Shown here piece after piece: positions 16,113 to 32,044 of a stretch of DNA of 64,000 nucleotides; position 1 is the first letter of the stretch; every line of letters begins with the position of its first letter. Made by a program: the position numbers and the translations under genes. Where the stretch lies: the NCBI GenBank assembly GCA_017436865.1, contig JAFSCH010000017.1, positions 1 through 64,000 of the forward strand, written 5' to 3'. This DNA comes from Lachnospiraceae bacterium. Its GTDB lineage: Bacteria; Bacillota; Clostridia; Lachnospirales; Lachnospiraceae. The notes below the pieces were generated by a model, which was not told the origin of the DNA, did no database searches, and saw only the letters and a program-made list of their open reading frames with translations.

Positions 16113-16128
16113 ACGGAAGGACAAACGT

Positions 16129-17217: not shown

Positions 17218-17222
17218 TAAGC

Positions 17223-17285
17223 AAATCATAGAAAGAACATGATTTACAAATAAAGGAAACATAGAGTATAGTGCAAATGCTATAC
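17223..17285 (+). other. Two small hairpins in the gap before the dehydrogenase gene
   Basis: AAATCAT (17223-17229) pairs with ATGATTT (17239-17245), and GTATAG (17266-17271) pairs with CTATAC (17280-17285). Neither is followed by a T-run, so they are not standard terminators. The paired arrangement resembles, without sequence identity, the double-hairpin elements at later junctions. The ribosome site AGGAG follows. Confidence 0.4.
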
Positions 17286-17302
17286 GCAGATAGGAGAAAA
17301 AT

Positions 17303-18619
17303 ATGAGCTTATATCAGGATATTGTAGAAGGAAAAGAGAAAGTATCGTTAGTAGGACTTGGTTATGTAGGTATGCCAATCGCAGTTGCGTTTGCAAGAAA
17401 GATTCAGGTTGTAGGATTTGACTTAAATGCGGCAAAGATTGATTTGTACAAGTCAGGAATTGATCCGACAAATGAGGTTGGTGATGAAGTAATCAAGAAT
17501 ACAACCGTAGAATTTACAGCAGATCCGACCAAATTAAAGGAAGCAAAGTTCCATATCGTAGCAGTTCCAACACCGGTTAATGATGATCATACACCGGATT
17601 TGACACCAGTAGAGGGTGCGAGCAGACTCTTAGGACAGAATTTGACCAAGGGCTCTATTGTTGTTTTTGAATCTACGGTATATCCTGGTGTAACAGAAGA
17701 TATCTGTGTTCCAATCTTAGAGAAGGAATCTGGACTTAAGTGTGGTGTGGATTTTAAGATTGGTTATTCTCCAGAGCGAATTAATCCTGGTGATAAGGTA
17801 CACAGATTAGAGACAATTACAAAGATTGTATCTGGTATGGACGAAGAAACATTAGAAGAAGTAGCAAAGGTGTACGAGCTTGTTGTAGAAGCGGGAGTAT
17901 ATCGTGCAGAGAGCATCAAGGTTGCAGAGGCTGCAAAGGTTATCGAAAACAGCCAGCGTGATATTAACATTGCATTTATGAATGAGTTATCCATTATTTT
18001 TAATAAGATGGGGATTGATACCAAGGCAGTTCTTGCGGCAGCAGGAACAAAGTGGAACTTCCTTCCATTCCAGCCGGGACTAGTGGGTGGACATTGTATC
18101 GGTGTTGATCCATACTACTTAACCTATAAAGCAGAACAGTTAGGTTATCATTCACAGATTATCCTTTCCGGTCGTCGTATCAATGATGATATGGGTAAAT
18201 ATGTTGCAGAGAATTTAGTAAAGAATTTAATCAAGGCGGATATTCCGGTTAAGGGAGCAAAGGTTGCTATCTTAGGATTTACCTTTAAGGAGAATTGTCC
18301 TGATACTAGAAATACGAAGATTATTGATATTTACAAGGAGCTTCAGGAGTATGGCATTACTGCAGTTGTAACGGATGATGACGCAGATGCACAAGAAGCT
18401 AAGAGATTGTATGGTATTGAATTCGTTCCAATGACAGAGATTAAGGATTGTGATGCGGTTGTTCTTGCAGTTGCACATGAGTCTTACAAGAAGTTGGAAA
18501 TGAAGGATATGGATGCATTATATGCAACAAAGAATAAAACAAAGGTATTAACAGATCTTAAGGGCATCTTAGATAAGAAGGCATATCAGGATGCAGGATA
18601 TCTTTATTGGAGGCTATAA
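17303..18619 (+). CDS. tviB: UDP-N-acetylhexosamine 6-dehydrogenase (TviB/WbpO type)
   Basis: A 438-residue nucleotide-sugar dehydrogenase that oxidises C6 of UDP-HexNAc to a uronic acid in two NAD-dependent steps. The NAD loop is VGLGYVGMP (17-25). Catalytic Cys265 lies in LVGGHCIGVDPYYLTYKA, and KVAEAAKVIENSQRDINIA holds the conserved helix with catalytic Lys and Asn. The sequence is of the Vi-antigen TviB/WbpO type rather than UDP-glucose dehydrogenase. Together with the WbpP-like epimerase two genes downstream it should give UDP-GalNAcA. An AGGAG site precedes ATG 17303. The stop codon is followed at once by a double-hairpin element. Confidence 0.88.
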   Translation: MSLYQDIVEGKEKVSLVGLGYVGMPIAVAFARKIQVVGFDLNAAKIDLYKSGIDPTNEVGDEVIKNTTVEFTADPTKLKEAKFHIVAVPTPVNDDHTPDLTPVEGASRLLGQNLTKGSIVVFESTVYPGVTEDICVPILEKESGLKCGVDFKIGYSPERINPGDKVHRLETITKIVSGMDEETLEEVAKVYELVVEAGVYRAESIKVAEAAKVIENSQRDINIAFMNELSIIFNKMGIDTKAVLAAAGTKWNFLPFQPGLVGGHCIGVDPYYLTYKAEQLGYHSQIILSGRRINDDMGKYVAENLVKNLIKADIPVKGAKVAILGFTFKENCPDTRNTKIIDIYKELQEYGITAVVTDDDADAQEAKRLYGIEFVPMTEIKDCDAVVLAVAHESYKKLEMKDMDALYATKNKTKVLTDLKGILDKKAYQDAGYLYWRL

Positions 18620-18682
18620 ATTGCAAAATCCATAGACGGAAGATTTTGCAATTAGCAAATTTGTGCAAAGGCACAAATTTGC
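18620..18682 (+). repeat. Double-hairpin intergenic element, copy 1
   Basis: It begins at the base after the TAA stop. Hairpin I: ATTGCAAAATC (18620-18630) pairs perfectly with GATTTTGCAAT (18642-18652) around the loop CATAGACGGAA. Hairpin II: GCAAATTTGTGC (18655-18666) pairs perfectly with GCACAAATTTGC (18671-18682) around AAAG. No T-run follows either stem. Related copies occur at 23038 and 30713, with different but still paired hairpin I stems. Confidence 0.8.
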
Positions 18683-18696
18683 ATGTGTAGAAAGTT

Positions 18697-20109
18697 ATGG
18701 TAAAAATGCGAAATAGAATAACGGATATATCGATATTTATTGTTTTTATGGCTTTTTTTGGCTTTTTGTTGATTACTGGAGAGCCTTTATATTTGGGAGA
18801 TAGCTTTCAGCATGAGATGCAGTTTGTGACAAGAGAGCCGGTGTATGCTCTGTTGATACAGTTCTTACGTTGGGTTTCACCAGAACACCACTATTGGTTT
18901 ATAATCATAGTACAAAATATTCTTGCAGTAGTAACCAATACTATTTTTATGTGTGTAGTGCTTAGAGAATGGAAGCTAAAGTGGCCTGTGCTAGTTTTAT
19001 TTGTGGCAATTTTGTTGTCGCCACATATTTTAACACCGATTGCTTCTGCTTCCGGAATGGTTATTACGAATTCGTTGCTTTCAGAAGGCATAGCTTATTC
19101 GCTATATTTGTTTTATGTTCTGTATATCTTGAAAGCAATATGGAGAATGGAGAGTGTTGGAAAAGACAGTATGCTTGCTTTTTTCTGGGCAGTCTTTATG
19201 TCTTTGGTACGTGGACAGTTTATGATACTGATTCTGGTATGGTTTTTGGCAATGGCACTAATCGCCTTTCTGCAGAAGCGTTGGAAGCAAATAGTTGTGT
19301 TTGTAGTAATGCTGGCAATTGCATTTGTGGGACGTGGTCTTATTGTGAAGACTTACAATTTCTGTGAGCAAGGATTGTTTGTAGATACGGCATCAGGGAA
19401 AGCAATGTCGATTGCAAACGTGCTGTATGTGGCAGATAGGGAAGACGGAGAAGCAATCGAAGAGGAAGGCTTGCGAGCTGCTTATTATGAAATCTTTGAT
19501 AGGGCTTATGCGGATGGAATGAATTACCAATTTTCACCGGATGGATTACTTGCAAGAGCAGCACATCATGAAGATTGCCATGATAGTTTGAACTTTGATT
19601 ATTTCGCAGTGGTAGCCAAAGAGTATGTCACGGAGACTACAGGTATTACCGTAGAAGACTATCAGCGTATGATGGTAGAAGTAGATAAGGTTGCGTCTTC
19701 GTTGATGGCAGAGCTTTTACCACAGGTATTATTAAGATATCTATATAATTATATTGCTATGGTCATGATGGGATTGATTAGAAGTGTTGCATTTCTTCAC
19801 CCAATTTTTAATTGGTATTCATTTGCAATCTATCTCATAGCAGTCATACTTATGATATATGTATGGATGAAGAAACCATGCTCTAAGGCAGCACCGTTTA
19901 TGGCATTGGTATTATTAATGATTATGGGAAATGTAGCGGGAACATCTCTGATGATTCAGTGCATTTCCAGATATATGTTATACAATCTGCCACTATTTTA
20001 TATGGCAGGATTCCTCTTGCTGATTGACTGTTTTGATATATACAACAGCAAAAGGCATGAAAAGGATAAAAAGTTACTAGAACGAAGTGACGGGAAGGAA
20101 GAAAAGTAA
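18697..20109 (+). CDS. Polytopic membrane protein, paralogue A (GT-C-like)
   Basis: A 470-residue protein with about ten hydrophobic segments and a soluble insert around residues 230-330. A paralogue is encoded at 25177. Both share a REPVYALL/REPGYCSFL-type motif in the first loop, a S/TEGIAYSL motif, an R-G/K-Q motif after the next helix, the helix pair around HPIFNWY/HPVLNWG, and a RYMLYN(L/T)PLFY ending. The first-loop acidic motif LGDSFQHEMQFVTREP is compatible with a GT-C glycosyltransferase but I do not recognise a named family. It lies between the two enzymes of the GalNAcA pathway, which suggests a role with that sugar (inference). ATG 18697 is used; ATG 18706 is possible. Confidence 0.65.
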   Translation: MVKMRNRITDISIFIVFMAFFGFLLITGEPLYLGDSFQHEMQFVTREPVYALLIQFLRWVSPEHHYWFIIIVQNILAVVTNTIFMCVVLREWKLKWPVLVLFVAILLSPHILTPIASASGMVITNSLLSEGIAYSLYLFYVLYILKAIWRMESVGKDSMLAFFWAVFMSLVRGQFMILILVWFLAMALIAFLQKRWKQIVVFVVMLAIAFVGRGLIVKTYNFCEQGLFVDTASGKAMSIANVLYVADREDGEAIEEEGLRAAYYEIFDRAYADGMNYQFSPDGLLARAAHHEDCHDSLNFDYFAVVAKEYVTETTGITVEDYQRMMVEVDKVASSLMAELLPQVLLRYLYNYIAMVMMGLIRSVAFLHPIFNWYSFAIYLIAVILMIYVWMKKPCSKAAPFMALVLLMIMGNVAGTSLMIQCISRYMLYNLPLFYMAGFLLLIDCFDIYNSKRHEKDKKLLERSDGKEEK

Positions 20110-21083
20110 TGGGATTTAGAGAATTAAGATTTCCGGAAAACAGTGTTTTCCTTGTAACAGGTGGAGCTGGTTTTATCGGTTCTAACCTTTGTGAAGCTTT
20201 AACAGATATGGGCTATCAGGTAAGATGTTTGGATGACCTTTCTACTGGTCATGAAGAAAATGTCAAGATGCTGATGGACAGACCAAATTATACGTTTATC
20301 AAGGGAGATATCAAGGATTTAGATACCTGTATGAAGGCGTGTGAAGGTGTTGATTATGTTATGAATCAGGCTGCATGGGGATCTGTTCCAAGAAGTATTG
20401 AGATGCCTTTATTCTATGAACAGAATAATATTATGGGTACTCTCAACATGATGGAAGCAGCAAGACAGCAGGGCGTTAAGAAGTTTGTTTATGCGTCTAG
20501 TTCTTCTGTTTATGGAGATCATCCTGTACTTCCAAAGAAGGAAGGACAAGAAGGTAATCTGCTCTCTCCATATGCGTTAACAAAACGAGTAGATGAGGAA
20601 TATGGAAAGCTTTACAAGAAGCTTTATGGTCTTGATACTTACGGTCTTCGCTACTTTAATGTATTCGGACGTCGTCAGGATCCAAACGGTGCTTATGCGG
20701 CTGTTATTCCAAAGTTTATTAAGCAGCTTTTAGATGGAGAGGTTCCTACGATTAACGGTGATGGTAAGCAGTCTAGAGACTTTACTTATATCGATAACGT
20801 AATCGAGGCAAATATGAGAGCATGTCTTGCATCTAGTGATGCGGCTGGAGAGGCATTCAACATTGCTTACGGTGGAAGAGAATATTTGATAGATATTTAC
20901 TACAACCTTTGCAAGGCTCTTGGTAAGGATGTAGAGCCAAACTTTGGACCGGATAGAGCAGGAGACATCAAGCATTCCAATGCGGATATTTCAAAGGCAA
21001 GAGAGTTGCTTGGATATGATCCGGATTATGACTTTGAAAAGGGTATTGCCCTTGCCATTGAATGGTACAAGGCAAATCTCTAA
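20109..21083 (+). CDS. wbpP: UDP-GlcNAc/UDP-GlcNAcA C4-epimerase (WbpP/TviC type)
   Basis: A 324-residue extended short-chain dehydrogenase/reductase that interconverts gluco and galacto forms of UDP-HexNAc or its uronate. The NAD loop is TGGAGFIGSN (17-26), the catalytic pair Tyr155-x3-Lys159 is in SPYALTKR, and SSSSVYGD supplies the Ser. The sequence QAAWGSVPRSIEMP and RYFNVFGRRQDPNGAYAAVIP match the WbpP/TviC group rather than GalE. With the TviB-like dehydrogenase it gives the UDP-GalNAcA route. Its ATG shares one base with the preceding stop (TAATG), so the two are probably coupled in translation. Confidence 0.9.
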   Translation: MGFRELRFPENSVFLVTGGAGFIGSNLCEALTDMGYQVRCLDDLSTGHEENVKMLMDRPNYTFIKGDIKDLDTCMKACEGVDYVMNQAAWGSVPRSIEMPLFYEQNNIMGTLNMMEAARQQGVKKFVYASSSSVYGDHPVLPKKEGQEGNLLSPYALTKRVDEEYGKLYKKLYGLDTYGLRYFNVFGRRQDPNGAYAAVIPKFIKQLLDGEVPTINGDGKQSRDFTYIDNVIEANMRACLASSDAAGEAFNIAYGGREYLIDIYYNLCKALGKDVEPNFGPDRAGDIKHSNADISKARELLGYDPDYDFEKGIALAIEWYKANL

Positions 21084-21104
21084 TCAATAACTTTGGAGAA
21101 TGAA

Positions 21105-21851
21105 ATGAACATTTCAATAAGAATGGATGATATTACACCTGATATGGATTGGGCAAAGTTCCTTAGATTTAAGGAACTTTGTGATCTGTATCAGGTCAAA
21201 CCGCTTATAGGGGTAGTTCCCGAAAATCAAGATGCCATGCTTCACATTGACGAGGAAAGAGATGATTTTTGGGAATGTTTATTACAGCTGGAAAAAGAAG
21301 GCTGGGTAATTGCTCAGCACGGTTACACTCATATTTATAGTACGAAGAAAAAGGGCTGTTTTCCGTTAAATGCTATTTCAGAGTATGCAGGAAAGCCCTA
21401 TGAGGAGCAGTTAGCAAATTTAAAAAAGGGCAAGCAAATTTTAGAAAGTCACGGCATTTATACCGATATTTTTATGGCACCGGCCCATTCCTATGATAAG
21501 AATACGTTGAAAGCACTAAAAGAAGCTGGATTTAGAAAGATGACAGATGGCTTTGGTGACAGACCGTATGAATGGAAGGGATTAACCTTTTATCCGATTT
21601 CTTTCAAACAAAGTAATAGCTTGAAGCAGGAAAGAGGTTATACTACCTTTGTGATTCATGCAAATACTATGAATGATAAGGATTTTGAGCGGTATGAAAA
21701 GCTCTTTGCTGAGCATAAGGACAAGTTGATTTCTTATCAGGATTATTTAAAGGTCAACACAGAAAAAAGAGGAGTTATAGGTAGAGTAAAGGAATACCTT
21801 ATGGCAATCAGTAAGTATGTGTTGGTAAGAGTGAATAGTTTGAGAAAGTAG
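21105..21851 (+). CDS. DUF2334/polysaccharide deacetylase-like protein
   Basis: A 248-residue protein with the NodB-like deacetylase signatures in shortened form: RMDDITPDMDW (the Asp pair), AQHGYTHIY (metal-binding His-x3-His) and FMAPAHSYDKNTLKALKEAG. It probably removes an N-acetyl or other acyl group from a sugar, perhaps on a lipid-linked intermediate, in the cytosol since no signal peptide is seen. ATG 21105 is preferred because GGAG at 21095-21098 lies six bases upstream; a TTG at 21093 overlaps that site. It is followed by a GT4 gene and a FemAB-like gene, forming a three-gene group. Substrate unknown. Confidence 0.8.
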   Translation: MNISIRMDDITPDMDWAKFLRFKELCDLYQVKPLIGVVPENQDAMLHIDEERDDFWECLLQLEKEGWVIAQHGYTHIYSTKKKGCFPLNAISEYAGKPYEEQLANLKKGKQILESHGIYTDIFMAPAHSYDKNTLKALKEAGFRKMTDGFGDRPYEWKGLTFYPISFKQSNSLKQERGYTTFVIHANTMNDKDFERYEKLFAEHKDKLISYQDYLKVNTEKRGVIGRVKEYLMAISKYVLVRVNSLRK

Positions 21852-21863
21852 ATGGAGACGAAA

Positions 21864-23054
21864 ATGAGCAATCAGAAAACAAACAATCCAATCCGAGTTT
21901 TGCATGTGCTGGGAACAACCAATCTTGGCGGTGCAGAAAGTAGAATTATGGAGCTGTATCGTTGCATGGATCGCAGTAAGGTACAGTTTGATTTTCTGGT
22001 GCATACCGATAAAGAAGGACATTATAGCAAGGAAATAAGAGAGCTTGGTGGGCATATATACAGTCTGCCACGCTTTCAGGTTATAAACCTTGCAGAATAT
22101 AAAAAAGCAATTAGATGCTTCTTTGCAGAACATAGGGAATTTGTAGCGATACAGGGACATATGACAAGTACGGCATCCATTTATTTGCCGATTGCAAAGA
22201 AAGCCAATCCGACCATTGTAACCATTGCACATGCTAGAAGTGCAGGTGTAGACAAAGGGCTAAAAGGATATGTAACGAAATTACTTAGAAGCTCTTTAAA
22301 ACATAAAACGGATTATTGTTTTACCTGTTCTAAGGAGGCAGGAGAGGCTGTTTTCGGCAAGGACTGGGTAAGAAAAGGAAAGGTCATTACCATACCAAAT
22401 GCCATTGATGTGAATCGTTTTCAATATAACGAAGCAGTACGAAAGGAAATAAGAGCGGAGCTTGGTATTCAGGATAAGTTCGTCATAGGTCACGTAGGAA
22501 GATTTGGTTTTATGAAGAATCATACGTATCTCGTTGATGTATTTGCTGAACTGTGTAAGCAAAGAGAGGATATGGCTCTTGTATTGATTGGTAAGGGCGA
22601 AGAAGAAGAGAATATACACAAAAAGTTGAAGAAGCTTGGAACAGAGCTGTTTGGTGATGAGCAGGCGTTGGAGAGTAAGGTACGGTTCTTAGGCAATAGA
22701 TTCGATGTAGAACGTTATTATCAGGCATTTGACTATTTTGTATTTCCATCGACCTTTGAAGGGCTTCCTGGAAGTGTTGCAGAGGCTCAGGCAGCAGGAC
22801 TTCATTGTCTGATTTCCGATAAGATTACAAGAGAGGTTGCACTTACAGAGCTTGTAACCTATCGAAGCATTGAGGAAGAACCAAGGCTCTGGGCAGAGGA
22901 AATCCTACAAAATGCTCAAAATGCATTCATTCGCAAGGATATGAGAGAAGCTATTGCACAAAAGGGCTTTGATGTAAATACACAGGCGGTATTGATGGAG
23001 AAATTCTATCGTACAGGGAAGAATCCGCCAGGGAGCAATGTGAAAAATCCATAA
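21864..23054 (+). CDS. GT4 glycosyltransferase (EpsF-like)
   Basis: A 396-residue retaining GT-B enzyme. The N-terminal domain has RVLHVLGTTNLGGAESRIMELYR and FLVHTDKEGHYSKEI, typical of EpsF-like capsule and exopolysaccharide glycosyltransferases. The C-terminal half has IGHVGRFGFMKNH and FPSTFEGLPGSVAEAQAAGL (donor binding). ATG 21864 is chosen, with GGAG at 21854-21857; the earlier in-frame ATG 21852 overlaps that site. The last codons and stop form the 5' arm and loop of the downstream double-hairpin element, so its extreme C-terminus (GSNVKNP) is partly shaped by that repeat. Sugar specificity unknown. Confidence 0.85.
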   Translation: MSNQKTNNPIRVLHVLGTTNLGGAESRIMELYRCMDRSKVQFDFLVHTDKEGHYSKEIRELGGHIYSLPRFQVINLAEYKKAIRCFFAEHREFVAIQGHMTSTASIYLPIAKKANPTIVTIAHARSAGVDKGLKGYVTKLLRSSLKHKTDYCFTCSKEAGEAVFGKDWVRKGKVITIPNAIDVNRFQYNEAVRKEIRAELGIQDKFVIGHVGRFGFMKNHTYLVDVFAELCKQREDMALVLIGKGEEEENIHKKLKKLGTELFGDEQALESKVRFLGNRFDVERYYQAFDYFVFPSTFEGLPGSVAEAQAAGLHCLISDKITREVALTELVTYRSIEEEPRLWAEEILQNAQNAFIRKDMREAIAQKGFDVNTQAVLMEKFYRTGKNPPGSNVKNP

Positions 23055-23097
23055 ACGGCAGATTTTTCACATGACGAATTTGTGTAACACAAATTCG
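23038..23097 (+). repeat. Double-hairpin intergenic element, copy 2
   Basis: Hairpin I: ATGTGAAAAATC (23038-23049) pairs perfectly with GATTTTTCACAT (23061-23072) around the 11-base loop CATAAACGGCA, nearly the same loop as copy 1. The TAA stop of the upstream gene (23052-23054) lies inside this loop. Hairpin II: CGAATTTGTGT (23075-23085) pairs with ACACAAATTCG (23087-23097). The stem sequence of hairpin I differs from copy 1 on both arms while pairing is kept. Confidence 0.78.
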
Positions 23098-23125
23098 CAG
23101 AGTTGTGAAAGGCAAGGTTAATAAT

Positions 23126-23911
23126 ATGATAGATGTCATGTATCAAAAGAAATTTCTTAAAATAAATCAGATTTGGTATCCGGGAAAGGTTACCATTTCC
23201 GAACTTCTCGGACAAAAGAGAAAGGCAGACATTCTCTTTGTTCATGGGGTGAAGAAAGAAGAAACAAAAGGTAGCTTTCGAGGCTGGCAGGAATATCATA
23301 CCTGTATGAATGATATTACAATGTCAGAGGAAGATATGCTTACCAATATTAACAAAGCAGTAAAATATCAATTTCGTCGTAGTGAAAAGGATGGAATTGA
23401 GATAAGATTCTATACTAAGGCAGATATTGAGGCAGATAGAAGTTTACTTAATACCTTTGCAGATATTTATGAGAGAATGTATCAGTCCAAGGGTTCCGAT
23501 ACCAAGCTTAACACAACAGCGATAGACCGTTATCTGGAGGCGGATTCGATTATTTTTTCCGCAGTATTACATGAGGGCGAGATTATCGTATTCCATTCCT
23601 ACATTTGTGATGAAACGGATGCAAGATTATTGCATTCTGCATCTTGTTTCCGTGAAGAAAGTGCTGACCAGTCTATGATTGGACGTGCGAACAAGCGTTT
23701 ACATTGGGAAGATATGAAATATTTTAAAGAAAAAGGACTTGTACGCTATGATTGGGGCGGAATCTCTGATTTTGAGAATCCAAATGGTATCGATGAGTTT
23801 AAGCTCAAGTTCGGCGGCGACAAGATCACATATTACAATGTGTTTACTGGCAATTCCTTGTTAGGAAAGCTTGCAGTTACAGCAATGAAACTGTTAAAGA
23901 GAGTAAACTAA
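23126..23911 (+). CDS. FemAB/GNAT-like acyltransferase
   Basis: A 261-residue protein of the FemAB-like branch of the GNAT superfamily. Supporting features are the central KYQFRRSEKDGIEIRF, the turn region ESADQSMIGRANKRLHWEDM and the hallmark YDWGGISDFENPNGIDEFK near residue 210, seen in peptidoglycan-bridge and exopolysaccharide aminoacyl/acyl transferases. It probably moves an acyl or aminoacyl group to an amino group of the glycan or its precursor; the donor is unknown. ATG 23126 is preferred, with AAGG eight bases upstream; an in-frame GTG at 23105 lies next to hairpin II of copy 2. It follows the deacetylase-like and GT4 genes, suggesting deacetylation then re-acylation (inference). Confidence 0.75.
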   Translation: MIDVMYQKKFLKINQIWYPGKVTISELLGQKRKADILFVHGVKKEETKGSFRGWQEYHTCMNDITMSEEDMLTNINKAVKYQFRRSEKDGIEIRFYTKADIEADRSLLNTFADIYERMYQSKGSDTKLNTTAIDRYLEADSIIFSAVLHEGEIIVFHSYICDETDARLLHSASCFREESADQSMIGRANKRLHWEDMKYFKEKGLVRYDWGGISDFENPNGIDEFKLKFGGDKITYYNVFTGNSLLGKLAVTAMKLLKRVN

Positions 23912-23946
23912 TTCAGAATTGCAATGCCAAGAAAGGATTAAGTAGC

Positions 23947-25131
23947 ATGCCTGATATGACTAAAAAAACAAAAATTATGTTGATTGTTCCGATGCTGGAC
24001 CAAGGCGGGTTAGAACGTGTATGTGCTTTGACGGCACAGCTTCTAAAAACTGCATATGAGGTACATCTTGTCGTATTCAACACAGAAGGCATGATTTATG
24101 ATGTATCAGGAGTACATCTGATTGATTTACAGCTAGGAGCGGTTCCGGGGAAGGTAGGCAAGATTCTGAATGTCTTGAAGCGTGTAAAGAGAGTAAAACA
24201 GCTGAAAAAAGAGCTGGATATTCAGATAAGCTATAGCTTTGGGCAAACAGCAAATATTGTTAATGTTCTTTCTAAGGTTAACGATGTTACATGGGCAGGA
24301 ATTCGAGGATATGGAGCGTTAGAAGACAAACAGGAGATGCGCTTTGTTTGTAAAAGGGCAGACAGAATGGTTAGTTGTACTAAGGTGATGGAAGCAGATA
24401 TTGCAGCAGGATTCAAGGTGAAATCTTCTGCAACTTTATACAATCCTTGCAATCTGGAAGAAATCAAACAATTTGCTAAGGAAGAGATACTGCCGGAGTT
24501 TGAAGCGTTTTTGCAAAGACCAGGAAAAACAGTGGTTTCCATGGGAAGAGCTCATGATGTAAAGGGTTTCTGGCATTTAATGAAGAGTATTTCTTTGATA
24601 AGGCAGAAGAAACACGATGTAAAGCTTATGCTAATTGGAGCAGGCGATTTTGATGAATATAAAGAACTTGCGAAGAAACTCCATATGGAGCAGGATGTAC
24701 TTTTTACAGGCGTGCAGAAAAATCCGTTTGCGTTACTGACAAGAGCGGATGTGTATGCACTGACATCGGACAGTGAAGGCTTTCCGAATGCTTTGATTGA
24801 AGCTATGGCTTGCGGACTTCCATGTGTCAGTGTAAATTGTAAGACAGGACCGGCGGAGATTTTGCAGGATGATTATCAGAAAAGTGAAAATCAAAATAAA
24901 GTATATCATGGAGATTATGGGGTGCTGACGCCGATTTTAAAAGGTGCAAAGAATTTGAATCCTGATGAAATAACAGAGGAAGAGAAAGTCTTTGCAGAAG
25001 AATTGGAAATGCTGTTAATAGATGACAACATGCGGGCAGGGTATCAGAATAAGGCAGTGAAAAGAGCAGCTGATTTCGGGATGGAAGCGTATGTGAAGGA
25101 AATAGAGAGATTAATAGCAGAAGATACGTAG
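23947..25131 (+). CDS. GT4 glycosyltransferase
   Basis: A 394-residue GT-B glycosyltransferase. KIMLIVPMLDQGGLERVCALTA at the N-terminus, split over the acceptor domain, and ALTSDSEGFPNALIEAMACG in the donor domain identify the family. A VSMGRAHDVKGFWHLMKS segment is the start of the C-terminal Rossmann domain. An insertion around residues 310-345, rich in polar residues, separates the donor motif from the end helix. ATG 23947 is preceded by AAAGGA; ATG 23956 is also possible. It lies between the FemAB-like gene and paralogue B. Donor and acceptor unknown. Confidence 0.85.
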   Translation: MPDMTKKTKIMLIVPMLDQGGLERVCALTAQLLKTAYEVHLVVFNTEGMIYDVSGVHLIDLQLGAVPGKVGKILNVLKRVKRVKQLKKELDIQISYSFGQTANIVNVLSKVNDVTWAGIRGYGALEDKQEMRFVCKRADRMVSCTKVMEADIAAGFKVKSSATLYNPCNLEEIKQFAKEEILPEFEAFLQRPGKTVVSMGRAHDVKGFWHLMKSISLIRQKKHDVKLMLIGAGDFDEYKELAKKLHMEQDVLFTGVQKNPFALLTRADVYALTSDSEGFPNALIEAMACGLPCVSVNCKTGPAEILQDDYQKSENQNKVYHGDYGVLTPILKGAKNLNPDEITEEEKVFAEELEMLLIDDNMRAGYQNKAVKRAADFGMEAYVKEIERLIAEDT

Positions 25132-25176
25132 GAAATAGGCTTGTAAAGATAGAATGATGTTGAAGAGGAGAGACCT

Positions 25177-26562
25177 TTGAAGGAGCATGGTGTTTTAAGG
25201 GATAAGAAAAAAGCAATATGGGTTGGTGTTTTTATCATAAGTGCAGTATTTTATCTGCTATGGTATCTACAGGATGGAATTATTCTGACGGAGGATGCGC
25301 CATCCTATATCAATATGACGAGTGATAGAGAGCCGGGCTATTGTAGCTTTTTATGGATTTTAAGAGTAATATTTGGTACGAATATTTATTTACACGTAGC
25401 AGTGATTTTACAATGTTTGATAGCAGCGCTTGCGGCTACAGCATTAACATACAGCTTGAAAAAGAGATTTGAGTTAAACTGGCTTATATCAATAGGAATT
25501 TTGGTGATTCAATATGGCATAACATTATTGAATCGTTTTGTTGCACAGCGCAGATACAGCTATTTTAACAGCATTGAAACAGAAGGAATCGCCTATTCCT
25601 TGTGGGTGTTTTTCTTTTTGTCTTTGCTTGGCATTTTATATGATAAGAATAAGAAAAGCATTTTGACAGCGGCAATTTGGGCAGTTGTTTTGATTTCCAT
25701 TCGAAAGCAAATGCTAGTTACATTGCCACTGATTTTTTTATGCATTCTATATGTTCGCTTTATGGATAAGAGAAAATGGTATCTTGTTTTGGCAGAAGCG
25801 ATTCTGGTCGTGGTGTTGAGTTATGTGGGTGTTGTGTTTGTAGATTGTAGCTATAACCTTGTAAGTAGAGGTGTATTTGAGCAACACACAGGAGATTCCA
25901 GCTTTATTCTGGGAACAGAGATTTACCTTGCAGATGTAGAAATGGCAGATGCGATGGAAGATGAACAGCATAAAGAAATCTTTCTGGAAATCATGCGACG
26001 CGCAGATGAGAAGCAGTATAACCTTGCGTATGCAGGAAAGGGCTGGCATAATATAGAAGACCATTATAGTCTTTCTTATGACAGAATTAAGTTTGATATT
26101 GTAAATGTGGTGGTAAGAGAATATCAGGAGAAAAATGGAATTCCGCAGGAGCAATGGGAAGAGTATTATCATGAGGTTGCAGGAACCTTGATGAAAGAAC
26201 TGTTGCCTGAAAGCATTCCTAATCTGATTAAGCTGTTTTTCTGTAATGTGATTCATGGAATGATTACAACGGTATTAAAGGTTCATCCGGTATTAAACTG
26301 GGGAGCATTGTTTCTATATGTGGCATATATCAGTGTATTTGTATTCCTCTGCCGAAAGCAGTCGTATAAAATGGTATCAGCAAGTGCATTACCATTTGCG
26401 GCGATTACGTTGATTTCGATTTTGGGAACGGTAGGTCTGACATCCATTACTATTTATTGTCAGATGCGATATATGTTGTATAATACACCGTTGTTTTATC
26501 AAGCGGGATTGATTATGCTGGTAGAAGGATGGAAGATTTTTGAGAGTAAAAAGGAGCAATAG
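25177..26562 (+). CDS. Polytopic membrane protein, paralogue B (GT-C-like)
   Basis: A 461-residue membrane protein, a diverged copy of the protein encoded at 18697. Shared landmarks in the same order are an acidic first loop (LTEDAPSYINMTSDREPGY), TEGIAYSLW, an Arg/Lys-Gln motif, a soluble insert at about 230-310 with acidic repeats, KVHPVLNWG, and RYMLYNTPLFYQAG near the end. The start is TTG 25177, supported by GAGGAG six bases upstream. By position between a GT4 and the CapI epimerase it may handle a second sugar donor, as paralogue A may handle GalNAcA (inference). I do not recognise a named family. Confidence 0.65.
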   Translation: MKEHGVLRDKKKAIWVGVFIISAVFYLLWYLQDGIILTEDAPSYINMTSDREPGYCSFLWILRVIFGTNIYLHVAVILQCLIAALAATALTYSLKKRFELNWLISIGILVIQYGITLLNRFVAQRRYSYFNSIETEGIAYSLWVFFFLSLLGILYDKNKKSILTAAIWAVVLISIRKQMLVTLPLIFLCILYVRFMDKRKWYLVLAEAILVVVLSYVGVVFVDCSYNLVSRGVFEQHTGDSSFILGTEIYLADVEMADAMEDEQHKEIFLEIMRRADEKQYNLAYAGKGWHNIEDHYSLSYDRIKFDIVNVVVREYQEKNGIPQEQWEEYYHEVAGTLMKELLPESIPNLIKLFFCNVIHGMITTVLKVHPVLNWGALFLYVAYISVFVFLCRKQSYKMVSASALPFAAITLISILGTVGLTSITIYCQMRYMLYNTPLFYQAGLIMLVEGWKIFESKKEQ

Positions 26563-26582
26563 CAAAAAAGAGGGTGCAAGAA

Positions 26583-27623
26583 ATGGTTAACTATAATGTT
26601 GATTTAAAAGGAAAAACGGTGCTCATTACGGGGGCAGCAGGATTTATTGGTTCAAATCTTGTAAAGTGTCTCATGGAGATGAATCAAGATATTACGATTA
26701 TTGGTTTGGATAATGTGAATGATTATTATGAGGTTGCATTGAAGGAAGCAAGATTGGCAGAATTGAGGCAATATACCAAGTTTACCTTTATTAAGGGAAA
26801 TATCGCTGATAAAGGTTTGGTAGAGTCTGTTTTTGAAAAATATAAGCCACAACTGGTTGTAAATCTTGCTGCACAGGCAGGAGTCAGATACTCAATTACT
26901 AATCCGGATGCCTATATAGAAGCTAATATTATGGGATTTTACAATATTCTAGAATGCTGTCGCCATAATCCGGTAGAACATCTCGTATATGCAAGTTCAT
27001 CCAGCGTATATGGAATGAATAAAAAAATACCTTATTCAACAGAGGATAAGGTAGATATGCCGGTATCGTTGTATGCAGCAACAAAGAAATCCAATGAGTT
27101 GATGGCACATGCGTATTCCAAATTGTATGATATTCCATCTACGGGATTAAGATTTTTCACGGTATATGGTCCGGCAGGACGTCCGGATATGGCATATTTT
27201 GGCTTTACGAATAAATTAAGAGCAGGAGAAAAGATTCAGATTTTCAATTATGGCAACTGTAAACGTGATTTTACGTATATTGATGATATTGTAACCGGTG
27301 TTGTAAAGGTTATGCAAAAGGCACCGGATGCAAACGCGGATGGTGTAAAATATAAGGTTTATAACATTGGGAACAACCAGCCGGAGAATTTATTGGATTT
27401 TGTAGATATTCTTCAGCAGGAATTGATTCGTGCAGGTGTATTGGAAGCAGATTATGATTTTGAAGCACACAAGGAACTGGTTCCTATGCAACCAGGCGAT
27501 GTAGAAATGACGTATGCAGATGTCGATGATTTAATCAGAAATTTTGGATTCAAGCCGGAGACAAGTTTAAGAGATGGTCTGCGGGCATTTGCAGAGTGGT
27601 ATAAAGCGTATTATATGCAATAG
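26583..27623 (+). CDS. capI: UDP-glucuronate 4-epimerase (CapI type)
   Basis: A 346-residue extended SDR. The NAD loop is TGAAGFIGSN (16-25). GLDNVNDYYEVALKEARL and NLAAQAGVRYSITNP are characteristic of UDP-glucuronate 4-epimerases of the CapI group; catalytic Tyr164-x3-Lys168 is in SLYAATKKS, and FFTVYGPAGRPDMAYF follows. It should supply UDP-galacturonic acid from UDP-GlcA; the UDP-glucose dehydrogenase needed for UDP-GlcA is not in the window. ATG 26583 is chosen, with GAGGG eight bases upstream; GTG 26574 overlaps that site. It lies close to two AsnB-like amidotransferases that could act on uronic acids (inference). Confidence 0.9.
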   Translation: MVNYNVDLKGKTVLITGAAGFIGSNLVKCLMEMNQDITIIGLDNVNDYYEVALKEARLAELRQYTKFTFIKGNIADKGLVESVFEKYKPQLVVNLAAQAGVRYSITNPDAYIEANIMGFYNILECCRHNPVEHLVYASSSSVYGMNKKIPYSTEDKVDMPVSLYAATKKSNELMAHAYSKLYDIPSTGLRFFTVYGPAGRPDMAYFGFTNKLRAGEKIQIFNYGNCKRDFTYIDDIVTGVVKVMQKAPDANADGVKYKVYNIGNNQPENLLDFVDILQQELIRAGVLEADYDFEAHKELVPMQPGDVEMTYADVDDLIRNFGFKPETSLRDGLRAFAEWYKAYYMQ

Positions 27624-27668
27624 AGAAGCGGTATGTATAGAAAACGCGTGTGCCTGTAGGAGGAGTAT

Positions 27669-28766
27669 ATGAAGAGAATTGTATTTCATTTGAATTGTCT
27701 CGAGCGAGGGGGAGCAGAGCGTGTGGTGACGAATCTCTCCGGGCAGTTCGCGGAACATGGTTATGAAGTATATATTGCAACAGAATGGCAGGGAGAAGAT
27801 GAATATGAGATAAATCCCAAGGTAAAGAGAGTGCATGTTGGATTAACAGAGAAACAGGCTGAAAAGGGAAGACCAGCTATGTTCTTGGCAAGGATTATGA
27901 ATCTGAGAAAATTTTTAAAAGAAGTAAAGCCTGATGTAGTGATTGCGTTTGCAAGAAAGGCAAATTACCGGGCACTTACGGCAACGATTGGGACTAAGAT
28001 TCCGGTATTGATATCAGTCAGAATTAATCCGATAGGTTACTATGATTTTCTTTCGGACAAAATACAGATTCCACTCTTATTTCCGAGGGCAGCAGGATGT
28101 GTATTTCAAACACCCGATCAGAGAGATTTTTTTCCTGAGTTCATACGGAAAAAGTCAAAGATTATTCTAAATCCAATAAGTACTAAATTTATTGGGAATC
28201 CGATACCTGAAAAACGGGAAAAAACTGTGGTGCATTCAGGACGTTTGGTGGATTTTAAAAATCAACCAATGCTGATTCGTGCTTTTGCAAAGGTTCATGA
28301 GAAACATCCGGAATATGTTTTAAAGATATTTGGTCCTGATTCATTCGATGGAACCAAGGAAAAGCTTGAGGCGCTTATCAAGGAGATGCATGCTGGTGAC
28401 TATGTAAAGCTTATGGGCGGAAGTGATCAGTTGGAAAAGGATATGATAAATGGAGCTGTTGCAGCGTTTTCATCTGATTATGAAGGGATGCCGAATGCAA
28501 TGCTTGAGGCAATGGCATTAGGACTTCCAGTTGTTGCCACGGATTGTCCGCCAGGCGGGCCGAGGATGGTAATTACACAGGAAGAAAATGGTTTACTTGT
28601 TCCGGTTGGAGACGAGGAAGCACTTGCGGTAGCAGTAAACAGACTGATTGAAGAGCCGGAATTTGCTAAAAAGCTTGGTGAAAATGCATCCCAAATCGGT
28701 GAAAAAGCGGGAGCAGAGATGATTTTCAAGGAATGGGAGAGTTATGTCCTTGAAGTATGTAAATAA
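27669..28766 (+). CDS. GT4 glycosyltransferase (PglH/PglJ-like), copy 1
   Basis: A 365-residue GT-B enzyme beginning KRIVFHLNCLERGGAERVV, with VHSGRLVDFKNQPMLIRAF and SSDYEGMPNAMLEAMALGLP plus ATDCPPGGPRMVI in the donor domain, a set typical of GalNAc-type transferases that act late in Pgl-like pathways. It is closely similar to the protein encoded at 30782, with the intervening asnB-like gene between them. GGAGG precedes ATG 27669. The pair probably arose by duplication and each may add one residue of the repeat unit (inference). Confidence 0.86.
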   Translation: MKRIVFHLNCLERGGAERVVTNLSGQFAEHGYEVYIATEWQGEDEYEINPKVKRVHVGLTEKQAEKGRPAMFLARIMNLRKFLKEVKPDVVIAFARKANYRALTATIGTKIPVLISVRINPIGYYDFLSDKIQIPLLFPRAAGCVFQTPDQRDFFPEFIRKKSKIILNPISTKFIGNPIPEKREKTVVHSGRLVDFKNQPMLIRAFAKVHEKHPEYVLKIFGPDSFDGTKEKLEALIKEMHAGDYVKLMGGSDQLEKDMINGAVAAFSSDYEGMPNAMLEAMALGLPVVATDCPPGGPRMVITQEENGLLVPVGDEEALAVAVNRLIEEPEFAKKLGENASQIGEKAGAEMIFKEWESYVLEVCK

Positions 28767-28829
28767 ATGGTAACGAAAAAAGTGCGAAATTGCTACTACA
28801 AATGTGATAAAAATAAGGAGGCGTAGACC

Positions 28830-30713
28830 ATGTGCGGAATATGCGGATTTATCTCGAAAAGAAGTATCACTCTTGACCAGTTAAAGGCGATGAATGATAC
28901 GATGTATCATAGAGGTCCGAATGACAGTGGAGAAGAAATATTTGAGGCGAAGGAAGGCTACTGTGTGGGGATGGCACAGAGACGTCTTTCTATCCTTGAT
29001 TTGTCTATGCTAGGACATCAGCCGATGCATTCGGCAAATGAGAGATTGGTAATCTCTTATAATGGAGAAATCTATAATTTTTTGGAATTAAGAGAAGAAT
29101 TGAGAGACTATCCATTTAAATCGCATTGTGATACAGAGGTTATCCTTGCAGCGTATTTAAAATGGGGAATATCCTGTATTGACCGATTTCAAGGAATGTT
29201 TGCTATTTCCTTGTATGATCGAGAGACAAATGAATTATATTTAGTAAGAGATAGAATTGGAAAGAAGCCATTGTATTACTGGCAAAAAGAGGATGGGCTT
29301 GTTTATGCTTCGGAATTAAAGCCGATTATGGCACATCCTGACTTTCCAAAGCAGATAAGAAAAGACGTTATAAAGCGCTATATGTTCCAACAGTGCATCA
29401 ATGAGCCGGATTCTATCTTTGAGAATGTTTATAAGGTTGAGCCGGGCGGAATTGTAAGATTCTCGGTACAGACCGGCAAGACGGATAAGTGGAAGTACTG
29501 GGATATTGCAGAGGTGTATTGTCGTAAGAAGGCAGAGCCTGTGGGAAGCTATGAGGAAGCCAAGGAAGAGTTGAAGAACATTCTGCGAGATTCTGTAAAG
29601 AAGAGAATGATTGCAGATGTTCCACTTGGAACCTTTTTAAGTGGTGGATATGATTCCTCATTGGTAACAGCTCTTGCACAGGAAGCAAGCTCTGAACCGG
29701 TGAAAACCTATTCTATTGGTTTTAATGAAGAGAAATATAACGAGGCAAAGTATGCCAAGGAAGTGGCCAATTACTTAGGAACAAAGCATACAGAAACCTA
29801 TATCGATGAAAAGACGATGTTTGGTCTGGTGGAAAGCATTCCTAAGTATTATGATGAGCCATTTGCAGACAGTTCGCAGATTCCTTCTATGTTGGTATCT
29901 GACCTTGCAAGCCGTGATGTAACGGTTGTGCTCTCTGGTGACGGTGGAGATGAGTTCTTCTGTGGTTACAATATCTATGATAGTGTAGCAAAGGCACAGA
30001 AGCTTGATGTATTAGGCCAACTGACGTATGGTGTATGCAATTTGCCACCTTTTAAGCAGATGAAGCTGATGGAGAAGCTACCGTTTGCAGTGCAGGTAGT
30101 AGCAGGCAATCATGATAAAACAACAAAGACACAGATTGGCGGAAGTTCTTATATTAGAGCGATTGATAAAATGTTGCCGGAGAGTGGTGTGCCATTTAAG
30201 TATCCAATAGAGCAAAAATATGGAGAAAAGAACTGGCAGGAGCGTCGTATGCTTCTGGATGAAGAGACCTATCTGCCAGGTGATATCCTCTGTAAGGTAG
30301 ACAGAGCTTCGATGAAGTATTCCATTGAATCTAGATGTCCAATTTTGGATGTAAATGTGATGGAATATTCTTACAGACTTCCGCATTCATATAAGTATGC
30401 CAATGGTGTAAAGAAACGGATTTTAAAGGATATAACCTATGATTATATTCCTAAGGAGCTGCTAGACAGGCCAAAGGTTGGTTTTGGTGTACCACTCGAT
30501 AAGTGGATGCGAGGACCATTGAAGGAACGGCTTGTAGATATGTGCAGTGTGGAATATTTGAAAAAGCAGGATATTTTTAATGCGGAATATGTGAATCGTT
30601 TTATTCACGAGTATTTAAGGACTGGAGATAAGGGACCGGCAACCGGTTCTAATTTCTCGAAGACGGCATGGTCTTTCTTCGCGTTCCAGTTATGGTATCA
30701 GACATATATGTAA
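28830..30713 (+). CDS. asnB: AsnB-like glutamine amidotransferase, copy 1
   Basis: A 627-residue protein with two domains. The N-terminal class II glutaminase has Cys2 (MCGICGF), RRLSILDLSMLGHQPM and NGEIYN; the C-terminal synthetase domain has the pyrophosphate loop SGGYDSS near residue 271 and VLSGDGGDEFFCGY. The family makes asparagine from aspartate, but homologues in polysaccharide clusters (WbpS type) are thought to amidate uronic acids. Two copies lying beside UDP-GalNAcA and UDP-GalA genes favour the latter here (inference). A strong AAGGAGG precedes ATG 28830. Its stop codon overlaps the start of double-hairpin copy 3. Confidence 0.88.
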   Translation: MCGICGFISKRSITLDQLKAMNDTMYHRGPNDSGEEIFEAKEGYCVGMAQRRLSILDLSMLGHQPMHSANERLVISYNGEIYNFLELREELRDYPFKSHCDTEVILAAYLKWGISCIDRFQGMFAISLYDRETNELYLVRDRIGKKPLYYWQKEDGLVYASELKPIMAHPDFPKQIRKDVIKRYMFQQCINEPDSIFENVYKVEPGGIVRFSVQTGKTDKWKYWDIAEVYCRKKAEPVGSYEEAKEELKNILRDSVKKRMIADVPLGTFLSGGYDSSLVTALAQEASSEPVKTYSIGFNEEKYNEAKYAKEVANYLGTKHTETYIDEKTMFGLVESIPKYYDEPFADSSQIPSMLVSDLASRDVTVVLSGDGGDEFFCGYNIYDSVAKAQKLDVLGQLTYGVCNLPPFKQMKLMEKLPFAVQVVAGNHDKTTKTQIGGSSYIRAIDKMLPESGVPFKYPIEQKYGEKNWQERRMLLDEETYLPGDILCKVDRASMKYSIESRCPILDVNVMEYSYRLPHSYKYANGVKKRILKDITYDYIPKELLDRPKVGFGVPLDKWMRGPLKERLVDMCSVEYLKKQDIFNAEYVNRFIHEYLRTGDKGPATGSNFSKTAWSFFAFQLWYQTYM

Positions 30714-30763
30714 TGCGAAAATAATATTTTCGCATGCAAATTTGTGCAGTGGCACAAATTCGC
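30713..30763 (+). repeat. Double-hairpin intergenic element, copy 3
   Basis: Hairpin I: ATGCGAAAATA (30713-30723) pairs perfectly with TATTTTCGCAT (30725-30735); the CATAAACGG-type loop of the other copies is missing here. Hairpin II: GCAAATTTGTGC (30736-30747) pairs with GCACAAATTCGC (30752-30763), one mismatch, loop AGTG. Hairpin II is nearly identical to copy 1. The element starts at the last base of the asnB-like stop and ends just before the next ribosome site AAGGAG. Confidence 0.78.
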
Positions 30764-30781
30764 AGGTTAAGGAGAATATGA

Positions 30782-31873
30782 ATGAAAAGAATAGCACTAT
30801 TTATCAGTTCCCTTCAAAAAGGGGGCTCAGAACGTGTTATGGTGAATTTGGCAGAATATCTTCATAAGAATCATTATGATGTTATTCTGGTAACACAATA
30901 TAAAAAAGAAGTGGAATATGATTTATCACCTGAGATTCGAAGAGTATATTCAGAGCCTGAGGAGCATGAGCTACAGGGAGGACGTATTCACAATTTCTTA
31001 GCAAGATTTATGAAGCTTCGTAGTATTTGGAAGGCGTATAAGCCGGATGTGATATTGTCTTTTTTAGGTAAAAATAATCTGATGGCAATTGCAACCGCTG
31101 CCTTCTTGCCATGTAACGTAGCGGTGTCAGTACGTGGGGAACCAACCATGGAATATGAAGGAAAATTTATGCAGGCTATTGCAAAATTAACTTTTCGCTT
31201 TGCAGATGGGATTGTTCTTCAGACGAAACAGGCAAGAGAGTTCTTTCCCAAGGGAGTTCGTAAGAAGGCGGTAATTCTTCCGAACCCAATGAATCCGATT
31301 TTCCTGGAAAAACGATATACCGGAGAAAGAGAGGATGTCATTGTTGCAGCCGGAAGGCTTGACGAGAACAAGAATCATGCGATGCTCATTCATGCGTTTG
31401 CCAAAATTGCAGAAGAATATCCGACTACGAATCTAGTTATCTATGGTGAAGGAGAAAACAGAGAAAAACTCGAAACATTAATTGCAGAAAAAGGTTTAAC
31501 AGAACGAATCTCTATGCCGGGAAGTGTGACGGATATTGCGGATCGAATTTGCAAAGCAAGAATTTTTACTCTTACTTCAAATACAGAAGGAATGCCGAAT
31601 TCAGTAATGGAGGCAATGGCACTTGGAATACCGGTTGTATCAACCGATTGTCCATGTGGAGGACCTGCTACCTTGATAGAAGATGGTGTGAATGGTTTAC
31701 TCGTTCCGGTTGGTGATGCTTTTGCGTTATCCGATGCGTTTAGAAAAATTTTATCCGATGCAGAATTTGCGAAAAAAATAGGAGAAAACGCTCATGATAT
31801 TGCAAAAAAAATGAAACCTGAAGAAGTAAATAGAAAATGGGAAGAGTATTTGGGGAAAATTGCAAAAAAATAA
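30782..31873 (+). CDS. GT4 glycosyltransferase (PglH/PglJ-like), copy 2
   Basis: A 363-residue GT-B glycosyltransferase, paralogous to the one encoded at 27669. It starts KRIALFISSLQKGGSERVM and has VAAGRLDENKNHAMLIHAF and SNTEGMPNSVMEAMALGIP followed by STDCPCGGPATLIEDG. AAGGAG lies seven bases before ATG 30782; ATG 30778 is out of frame. It is the last gene of the first transcription unit: an intrinsic terminator begins seven bases after its stop. Substrate not determinable from sequence. Confidence 0.86.
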   Translation: MKRIALFISSLQKGGSERVMVNLAEYLHKNHYDVILVTQYKKEVEYDLSPEIRRVYSEPEEHELQGGRIHNFLARFMKLRSIWKAYKPDVILSFLGKNNLMAIATAAFLPCNVAVSVRGEPTMEYEGKFMQAIAKLTFRFADGIVLQTKQAREFFPKGVRKKAVILPNPMNPIFLEKRYTGEREDVIVAAGRLDENKNHAMLIHAFAKIAEEYPTTNLVIYGEGENREKLETLIAEKGLTERISMPGSVTDIADRICKARIFTLTSNTEGMPNSVMEAMALGIPVVSTDCPCGGPATLIEDGVNGLLVPVGDAFALSDAFRKILSDAEFAKKIGENAHDIAKKMKPEEVNRKWEEYLGKIAKK

Positions 31874-31880
31874 ACAATTT

Positions 31881-31906
31881 AAAAGGCCACAAAGGTGGTC
31901 TTTTTT
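31881..31906 (+). terminator. Rho-independent terminator
   Basis: AAAAGGCCAC (31881-31890), loop AAAG, then GTGGTCTTTT (31895-31904) make a ten-pair stem with one G-T pair, running into a TTTTTT tract. It directly follows the last gene of the upstream unit and separates it from the promoter at 31940. Confidence 0.9.
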
Positions 31907-31939
31907 GTATTTAGAAACGCGGATAGGATGAGGGAAACA

Positions 31940-31968
31940 TTGAAAGTAAAGGGCAATTATGTTATTAT
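31940..31968 (+). promoter_or_regulatory. Sigma-A-type promoter for the second transcription unit
   Basis: TTGAAA (31940-31945), exactly 17 bases, then TATTAT (31963-31968), about 75 bases ahead of the next start codon and after the terminator. Both boxes match the vegetative consensus at five of six positions. A second weaker candidate lies further downstream (TTGTGT at 31981 with a TATAC region near 32006). Confidence 0.65.
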
Positions 31969-32044
31969 CTAATGATGGTATTGTGTATATGAACATAAAT
32001 AATGTTATACAATTTATAGTTTCAAAGACGGGAGAGTGTCAGGC

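Follow-up and report, generated by a model that had tools for sequence, protein, structure and literature searches.

The 64,000-nt window analysed here, positions 1-64,000 of contig JAFSCH010000017.1 from a Lachnospiraceae bacterium, carries two consecutive hairpins and a tail at each of three gene junctions; all copy coordinates refer to this window. These double hairpins are very probably copies of a non-coding, structured mobile element that moves to a target resembling a Shine–Dalgarno (SD) sequence; our confidence in any particular mechanism of movement is low. The family is found genome-wide, its insertions are polymorphic between relatives, its R-type subfamily duplicates 8 bp of an SD-like target, its stems covary and its long form contains a covarying pseudoknot, and it has no terminal inverted repeats (TIRs). 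The original prediction had favoured a selected RNA structure with a role in mRNA processing, stability or antitermination and had named a short mobile palindrome as the main alternative. It is this alternative that the comparison of genomes supports.

Mobility is seen at junctions that are filled in one genome and empty in a relative. Between mutL and miaA, genome G000 reads ...AAGAGAATA, element, AGGGATTA, ATATAATATG, and G014, whose MiaA is 91% identical, reads ...AAGAGAATAGTATAATATG; the target of this insertion is AGAGAATA and its right copy AGGGATTA. MiaA was matched in 35 genomes; 30 of these loci were fetched, of which 29 were readable. The full element is present in G000 and G031 only, tail-like remnants are present in G032, G001 and perhaps G011, and none was read in the rest. 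Fifteen further G000 junctions were compared with G014 and G021 (26 relative loci), and nine of them lack the element in one or both relatives. At uvrC, G021 has a clean empty site with a single GGAGGATTA, and G014 is also without the element. It is missing at pyk in G014, and in G021 at folD, cbiD, glk, cmk, rnfB, priA and the gene of locus L053. With a covariance model built from 46 copies of many species (R2), the element is found at five of the G014 junctions (folD, glk, priA, yhaM and the gene of locus L057), and two elements in tandem are found at yhaM in G021. Partial or deletion remnants occur in G014 at relA, at a gene resembling glutaminyl-tRNA synthetase and at L050, while the sequence is degenerate and difficult to interpret at argS in both relatives and at pyk and relA in G021. 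The genes downstream of such junctions, named by eye from their translations (pyk, miaA, uvrC, folD, cmk, cbiD and rnfB), are unrelated to each other.

The target is visible in the left flank. Named genomes were scanned for an exact pattern, which yielded 66 stretches; almost all come from Lachnospiraceae, with bacterium A4, COE1 and strain 526-35 among the sources. Two of the stretches (L099, L139) have no hairpin and were taken as chance, and with four others without a recognised arm they were left out. In the 60 stretches used, the element is preceded by an SD-like purine run and then TA. In 49 of 168 copies the motif RGRGNNTA directly abuts the left boundary, compared with a mean of 0.22 and a maximum of 1 at shifted positions. 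Two subfamilies are distinguished by the right end. R-type copies have tails like CGGAAT or CAAGAAT. In 24 of 108 of them, the 8 bp to the left of the element are repeated without change at its right end, with 2.9 expected from swapped pairs and at most 11 reached in 2000 permutations. These exact duplications also copy letters that depart from the consensus (GGAGCTTA, AGAGGTCA, AGAGGGTA, GGAGATCA). An identical 10-mer stands on both sides of 12 of 150 copies, where mismatched pairs predict 0.53; this tally mixed the two subfamilies, and after they were split the signal is present only in the R-type. Tandem duplication of element plus tail was rejected as the source of the flank identity, since the signal persists when the 31 of 108 copies with tail-like left flanks are removed (16 of 77 duplicated, 2.0 expected, permutation maximum 9). 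A-type copies, which are common in G000, G021 and G029, resemble the R-type in their left flank, but their right end is constant, with a tail of the form ...AAAGG(AG)CATGGTTATTA.

With a strand-specific target, insertions come to point in the direction of the gene and to lie at operon junctions. An open reading frame (ORF) starts downstream in sense in 150 of 163 copies, with 59 of 163 in the antisense control, and 121 of 163 copies have an ORF that terminates at their left end, with 66 of 163 in the control; the ORF rule is crude, the antisense control is high, and the 13 misses include copies before short genes. The junction position and sense orientation noted in the window extend to the family. 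As signs of a mobile repeat, the original prediction had listed genome-wide copies, insertion polymorphism and the lack of an orientation bias. The first two are found, while a bias is present and is explained by the strand-specific, SD-like target. Under the ORF rule the copies at L086, L055, L058 and L175 do not stand ahead of a gene start. Locus L211 carries an exact duplication of the motif AGAGGGTA with no start codon behind it, which speaks against pure survivorship. At L095 (366-426) a copy lies directly downstream of an apparent tRNA 3' end, where neither an SD target nor a following gene start is seen. A-type tails, for example at L038, hold an ATG that is in frame with the expected start and lies four codons ahead of it (ATG GTT ATT NNN ATG), which might add residues to the N-terminus of the protein.

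The element has a short and a long form. The short form, found in this genus and some others, consists of a P1 hairpin, a P2 hairpin and a tail with an SD, and measures about 70-95 bp. The long form was read in 13 genomes from 10 genera, one of which belongs to a second family of the order. It contains P1, P2, a P3 with a bulged A and a small P4, is mostly 123-135 bp long and usually ends in CGGAAT ahead of the right SD. The bulged A of P3 is present in 34 of 35 aligned long copies. In 22 copies from the host genome, 12 of 24 base pairs show changes on both sides, and none of 500 shuffles reached the covariation score; the paired changes in the stems that the original prediction had pointed out in three copies are real. 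In the 35 long copies, P1 to P3 are paired in 95.9% of cells and both sides change in 19 of 35 pairs. Their covariation is 0.358 compared with 0.102 in shuffles, none of 500 being as high, and the weakest of five measures, further pair types, was reached by 20 of 500. The P2 loop of the long form pairs with the 3' end in a pseudoknot. Its mean helix is 8.1 bp within copies and 5.4 bp when loops and tails are swapped (permutation maximum 6.9), and 29 of 32 distinct loop and tail pairs reach at least 6 bp, compared with 38% of swapped pairs. P2 has a recurrent A-C mismatch in 44 of 100 cells (mixed set of 101 copies), and in P1 there are 15 G-U pairs versus 7 A-C pairs among 1179 cells. Many copies read GTGTGA after the left SD, which had raised the idea of a start-stop mini-ORF (GTG-TGA); this was rejected, as these first bases change together with their partners in the stem. 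At L128, L143, L144, L145 and L150 the loop of hairpin II is enlarged, and the extra sequence resembles further inserted hairpins.

The original prediction had described three junctions of one gene cluster. Members of the family are spread through the whole genome. The 4.2-Mb host genome contains 17 exact occurrences of the hairpin II half-site GCAAATTTGTGC and none of its reversed control. The loop pattern of hairpin I, allowing up to 3 mismatches, occurs 33 times (control 2); 30 loci were fetched and 25 retained as hairpin-bearing. A covariance model built on the 22 host copies (R1) gives 47 matches in the host genome at E<=1, of which 30 pass E<=0.01, and has matches in 33 of 36 genomes of the genus and in 1 of 24 genomes of other families. 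With R2 and E<=0.01, 35 of the 38 genomes of the genus have a match; the three without a match at this threshold are G026, G005 and G033, the last two of which are incomplete. Across the order, with stricter filters and E<=0.001, R2 matches 19 of 294 genomes and 12 of 144 genera, host and genus included. Rfam gave no match at gathering score over the whole window and only sub-threshold matches at element loci elsewhere, and a known RNA family was rejected as an identity. At L188 (344-564, genome G089), a T-box leader match of 83.4 bits, below the gathering score of 93, lies upstream of a long-form copy, which may therefore stand between the T-box and its gene.

Several observations weigh against a mobile element with an SD-like target. 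The empty sites were read by eye on alignments. Most R-type copies (84 of 108) have no exact duplication, and among A-type copies none of 36 has one (0.6 expected), so that only the left flank points to an A-type target. At the three window copies no target duplication is recognisable, and here too it is the left flank alone that suggests the target. Of 229 distinct copies, 85 were left out because their right end could not be classified, and the host genome contributed many of these. At folD, the filled copies lack the left SD that the empty site predicts, which speaks against a simple duplication of 8 bp at this site. At pyk, the closer relative G014 has an empty junction and G021 only a degenerate remnant, from which it follows that loss must occur as well as gain. 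The exclusive location at SD motifs and in sense could in part reflect survivorship. For the nature of the fold, the rarity of G-U pairs in the stems is not decisive between RNA and DNA folding.

Traces of recent movement and of decay are both found. G029 holds six copies identical over 67 nt on different contigs (L069, L374-L378), and in G021 one 67-nt element body is present twice (L381, L382). These bodies belong to the A-type, and in most of them a constant tail extends to TTATTA or GATTA ahead of the start codon; they likely represent a recent A-type burst without target duplication. Insertions in tandem into the tails of older elements are also seen. Of 56 right ends found in seven genomes, three are the full copies L180-L182; among the 53 others that were examined, 33 have a left end within 150 bases, 18 have none and 2 lie at contig edges. 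The 18 right ends without P1 were first taken as 5' truncations. This was rejected, as the right-hand 8-mer recurs exactly within 160 bases upstream in 0 of 18, so these copies resemble deletions. For two of them, a P1-like string about 1 kb upstream does not form the family hairpin by its letters.

We propose that the element inserts in sense and immediately 3' of an SD-like motif with the consensus RGRGNNTA. Insertion of an R-type copy would duplicate the 8-bp target, leaving one SD on the left and placing a second before the start codon, whereas an A-type copy would bring its own constant tail. As the right-hand SD would serve the downstream gene, the hit would be nearly harmless. The fold, as RNA or single-stranded DNA, would be needed for mobilisation and not for the regulation of each host gene. 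If the mobilising machinery recognises this fold, active lineages would maintain covariation even though each individual copy is dispensable. Copies would decay once inserted, and the tail may be kept as a ribosome-binding site when the hairpins are lost. Beyond that, the fold may influence the decay of the mRNA or the recycling of ribosomes at the stop codon of the upstream gene.

Candidate mobilisers were approached through the domains RVT_1 and Y1_Tnp (PF01797), which were searched in 12 genomes that carry the element; no mobiliser was found within this scope, which did not include DDE transposases. RVT_1 is present in G000, G035, G010, G272, G317, G276 and G089 and was not found in G261, G265, G164, G312 and G320. 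Y1_Tnp is present in G000, G010, G272 (weak), G312 and G089 and was not found in G035, G317, G276, G261, G265, G164 and G320; a thirteenth genome in this search, G026, has no element copy at E<=0.01 and is not counted as a carrier. Since each class is absent from some carriers, neither is a standing requirement. In 12 loci of reverse transcriptases or Y1 transposases fetched out of 24 matches, no element was found.

A classical miniature inverted-repeat transposable element (MITE) moved in trans by a DDE transposase would agree with the size, the copy number and the 8-bp duplication. Eight base pairs is a duplication length made by several insertion sequence (IS) families. We consider this reading unlikely, given the asymmetric target and the termini, which show a mean of 3.2 identities in 14 positions between the left end and the inverted right end of 11 exact-duplication copies (chance about 3.5). 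Among the 53 right ends examined in the seven genomes there is also no longer, ORF-bearing copy with the same ends that could be autonomous. In G261, the loci L175, L176 and L177 carry identical element letters inside a larger repeat, with outer parts CAGGCATTTTCGAAACTCTT and its inverse in L175 and similar parts in L176; this larger repeat resembles a TIR-type MITE that captured the element.

The lack of inverted termini, together with the constant 3' end, the duplication of a strand-specific target and an RNA-like fold with a pseudoknot, also fits a retroposon comparable to a short interspersed nuclear element (SINE). In such a bacterial counterpart, a non-coding folded RNA would use its own downstream SD as an address, and a nicked SD in the target would prime reverse transcription on the SD that follows the element in the transcript. 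If true, the element would have spread through operons in sense, giving each target gene a ready-made ribosome-binding site; the reverse transcriptase, or another polymerase, would be provided in trans or be present only for a time. We hold this to be quite improbable. RVT_1 was not found in five of the 12 carriers, and three of these five (G261, G265 and G320) hold copies with exact 8-bp duplications, although reverse transcriptase may have been present in the past. In addition, the right-only copies, which look like deletions, include no 5'-truncated insertion with a duplication.

A cis-acting regulatory RNA at operon junctions, conserved for the benefit of the host and acting in processing, stability or EAR/LoaP-like antitermination, would account for the compensatory stem changes and for the sense orientation at ORF ends and starts. 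LoaP and EAR antitermination RNAs are RNA hairpins in polysaccharide operons, and the window hairpins also lie in a polysaccharide region. Unlike those RNAs, the element occurs genome-wide, before unrelated genes, and is polymorphic for insertion. Orthologous junctions of close relatives lack it, its target sequence is duplicated, and its copies erode, with 18 of 53 right ends lacking hairpin I and more remnants at the compared junctions. No Rfam family describes it. As to the LoaP/NusG paralogue that the original prediction had suggested to look for near the cluster, no NusG/LoaP-type domain is listed for the 40 window proteins scanned, which comprise neither every ORF nor the whole genome. 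We conclude that a conserved role in mRNA processing or antitermination is very unlikely. One junction, judged to be glgC-glgD (L071, L073, L074, L084), carries the element in four genomes with differing P1 stems (GTGTG, GCACG) and is a candidate for long-term retention; a regulatory RNA would also fit this pattern.

IS200/IS605 insertion is not known to make a target duplication, and the duplication made by the element is thus at odds with a repetitive extragenic palindrome (REP) or IS200-IS605-type element moved by a Y1 transposase. Such an origin is hardly credible, even though the element is TIR-less and palindromic, often has TAG ahead of the foot of hairpin I and sometimes supplies a stop codon, as REPs do (PMC3733652), since Y1_Tnp is missing in 7 of 12 carriers and four Y1 loci fetched of ten matches contain no element.

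Among known systems compared by kind, the closest is YPAL or RU-2 of Yersinia. This repeat of about 168 bp is intergenic, has internal inverted repeats and makes target duplications, and its recent mobility was inferred from empty and filled sites (PMC2229807). Similar to YPAL, our element combines the absence of TIRs and internal inverted repeats with target duplication and empty and filled sites. YPAL duplications vary between 3 and 26 bp and its targets lie at dyad symmetries (PMC2229807), whereas the R-type duplicates 8 bp at an SD motif, nearly always in sense, and the long form is pseudoknotted. REP and GTAG palindromes, which are associated with RAYT transposases, are short, lie beside genes in many copies and sometimes supply stop codons (PMC3733652). 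Our element shares all of these features, but differs in its sense SD target, its target duplication, its multi-hairpin fold and the carriers without Y1_Tnp. BOX, RUP and SPRITE of pneumococcus are likewise multi-hairpin interspersed repeats that proliferated in one clade (PMC3049150). BOX and RUP have TIRs similar to those of resident IS elements, which our element lacks, and the single mention of Shine–Dalgarno in that paper concerns ORFs formed by BOX and not a target (PMC3049150). In the main text of a review of prokaryotic MITEs, the terms ribosom-, Shine and start codon do not occur (PMC10969869), and a repeat candidate described with one long stem is not this element (PMC11109978). No earlier description of SD-targeted insertion was found in the open-access literature searched.

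We regard the element as an SD-targeting kind of bacterial miniature mobile element of gut Lachnospiraceae. An element addressed to SD motifs rewires translation initiation regions directly and separates tightly coupled genes. Each insertion leaves two SDs or a new one, places a stable structure at the stop codon and may in time decay to a bare ribosome-binding site. This gives selfish DNA a way of writing intercistronic regions. The case is also a warning that repeated, covarying hairpins at gene junctions should not be read as host riboregulators without an empty-site test.

The three window copies (Table 1) are probably old. Both hairpins are present at each junction where the original prediction had placed them. 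The feature is longer than described there, with a tail that reaches the next start codon and a left flank that is typically SD-like (clear in copy 1, weaker in copy 2 and not seen in copy 3).

Table 1. Coordinates and supporting evidence for the three element copies in the 64,000-nt window.
Feature	Position	Strand	Details and evidence
UDP-sugar dehydrogenase gene upstream of copy 1	17303-18619		ORF list, Pfam
Copy 1, whole	18619-18699	+	two hairpins and tail
Copy 1, left flank	18609..18618	+	SD-like GGAGGCTATA, inside 3' end of UDP-sugar dehydrogenase gene; family motif statistics
Copy 1, hairpin I	18619..18653	+	arms 18619-18630 / 18642-18653, loop CATAGACGGAA; folding, model R2
Copy 1, hairpin II	18655..18682	+	folding, arm pairing, model R2
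Copy 1, tail	18683..18699	+	weak SD-like GAAAG; reaches start codon of next ORF, ATG 18697
Copy 2, whole	23038-23130	+	two hairpins and tail
Copy 2, left flank	23030..23037	+	SD-like AGGGAGCA
Copy 2, hairpin I	23038..23072	+	arms 23038-23049 / 23061-23072; folding, model R2
Copy 2, hairpin II	23075..23097	+	folding, model R2
Copy 2, tail	23098..23130	+	A-type-like GTGAAAGGCAAGGTTAATAATATG; ends at ATG 23128-23130
Copy 3, whole	30713-30780	+	two hairpins and tail
Copy 3, hairpin I	30713..30735	+	short-loop form; folding, model R2
Copy 3, hairpin II	30736..30763	+	recurrent A-C mismatch of the family; folding, model R2
Copy 3, tail	30764..30780	+	GGAGAATA at 30771-30778 matches RGRGNNTA and leads into ATG 30778

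In copies 1 and 2 the arms of hairpin I are complementary at 12 of 12 positions around the 11-base loop that the original prediction had correctly seen as shared, and the arms of hairpin II in copy 1 are likewise complementary at 12 of 12. Hairpin II begins directly after hairpin I or 1-2 bases on. Chance hairpins were rejected by folding and by the family covariation, in line with the original argument for a selected structure: the RNA folding z-scores of copies 1, 2 and 3 are -5.6, -3.6 and -4.4, with 0, 1 and 0 of 200 shuffles folding equally well. R2 scores copy 1 (18618-18684) with 81.4 bits (E 4.2e-14), copy 2 with 77.4 bits and copy 3 with 57.3 bits, all three belonging to its training set; away from them, the best match in the 64 kb reaches 11.7 bits. 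An intrinsic terminator was rejected, as no T-run follows the hairpins, which agrees with the first description, and none of the 10 terminator-like sites in a scan of 16000-33000 corresponds to the three copies. At copy 3 the motif runs into a start codon at ATG 30778; the ORF tool gives 30782.

According to a Pfam scan of 40 proteins, the window genes form a polysaccharide biosynthesis region with UDP-sugar dehydrogenase, epimerases, glycosyltransferases, two asparagine-synthase-like proteins, a sugar transferase and O-acyltransferases. The asparagine-synthase-like ORF upstream of copy 3 has its stop codon at 30711-30713. The stop codon of the glycosyltransferase ORF upstream of copy 2 (23052-23054) lies inside the loop of hairpin I, and the element therefore supplies the C-terminus of that protein. 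Outside the R2 matches, positions 2405-2460 of the window, between two ORFs, read GTGAGAAAATCC ... GTGAAAGGCATAAAG and are possibly an eroded copy of the element.

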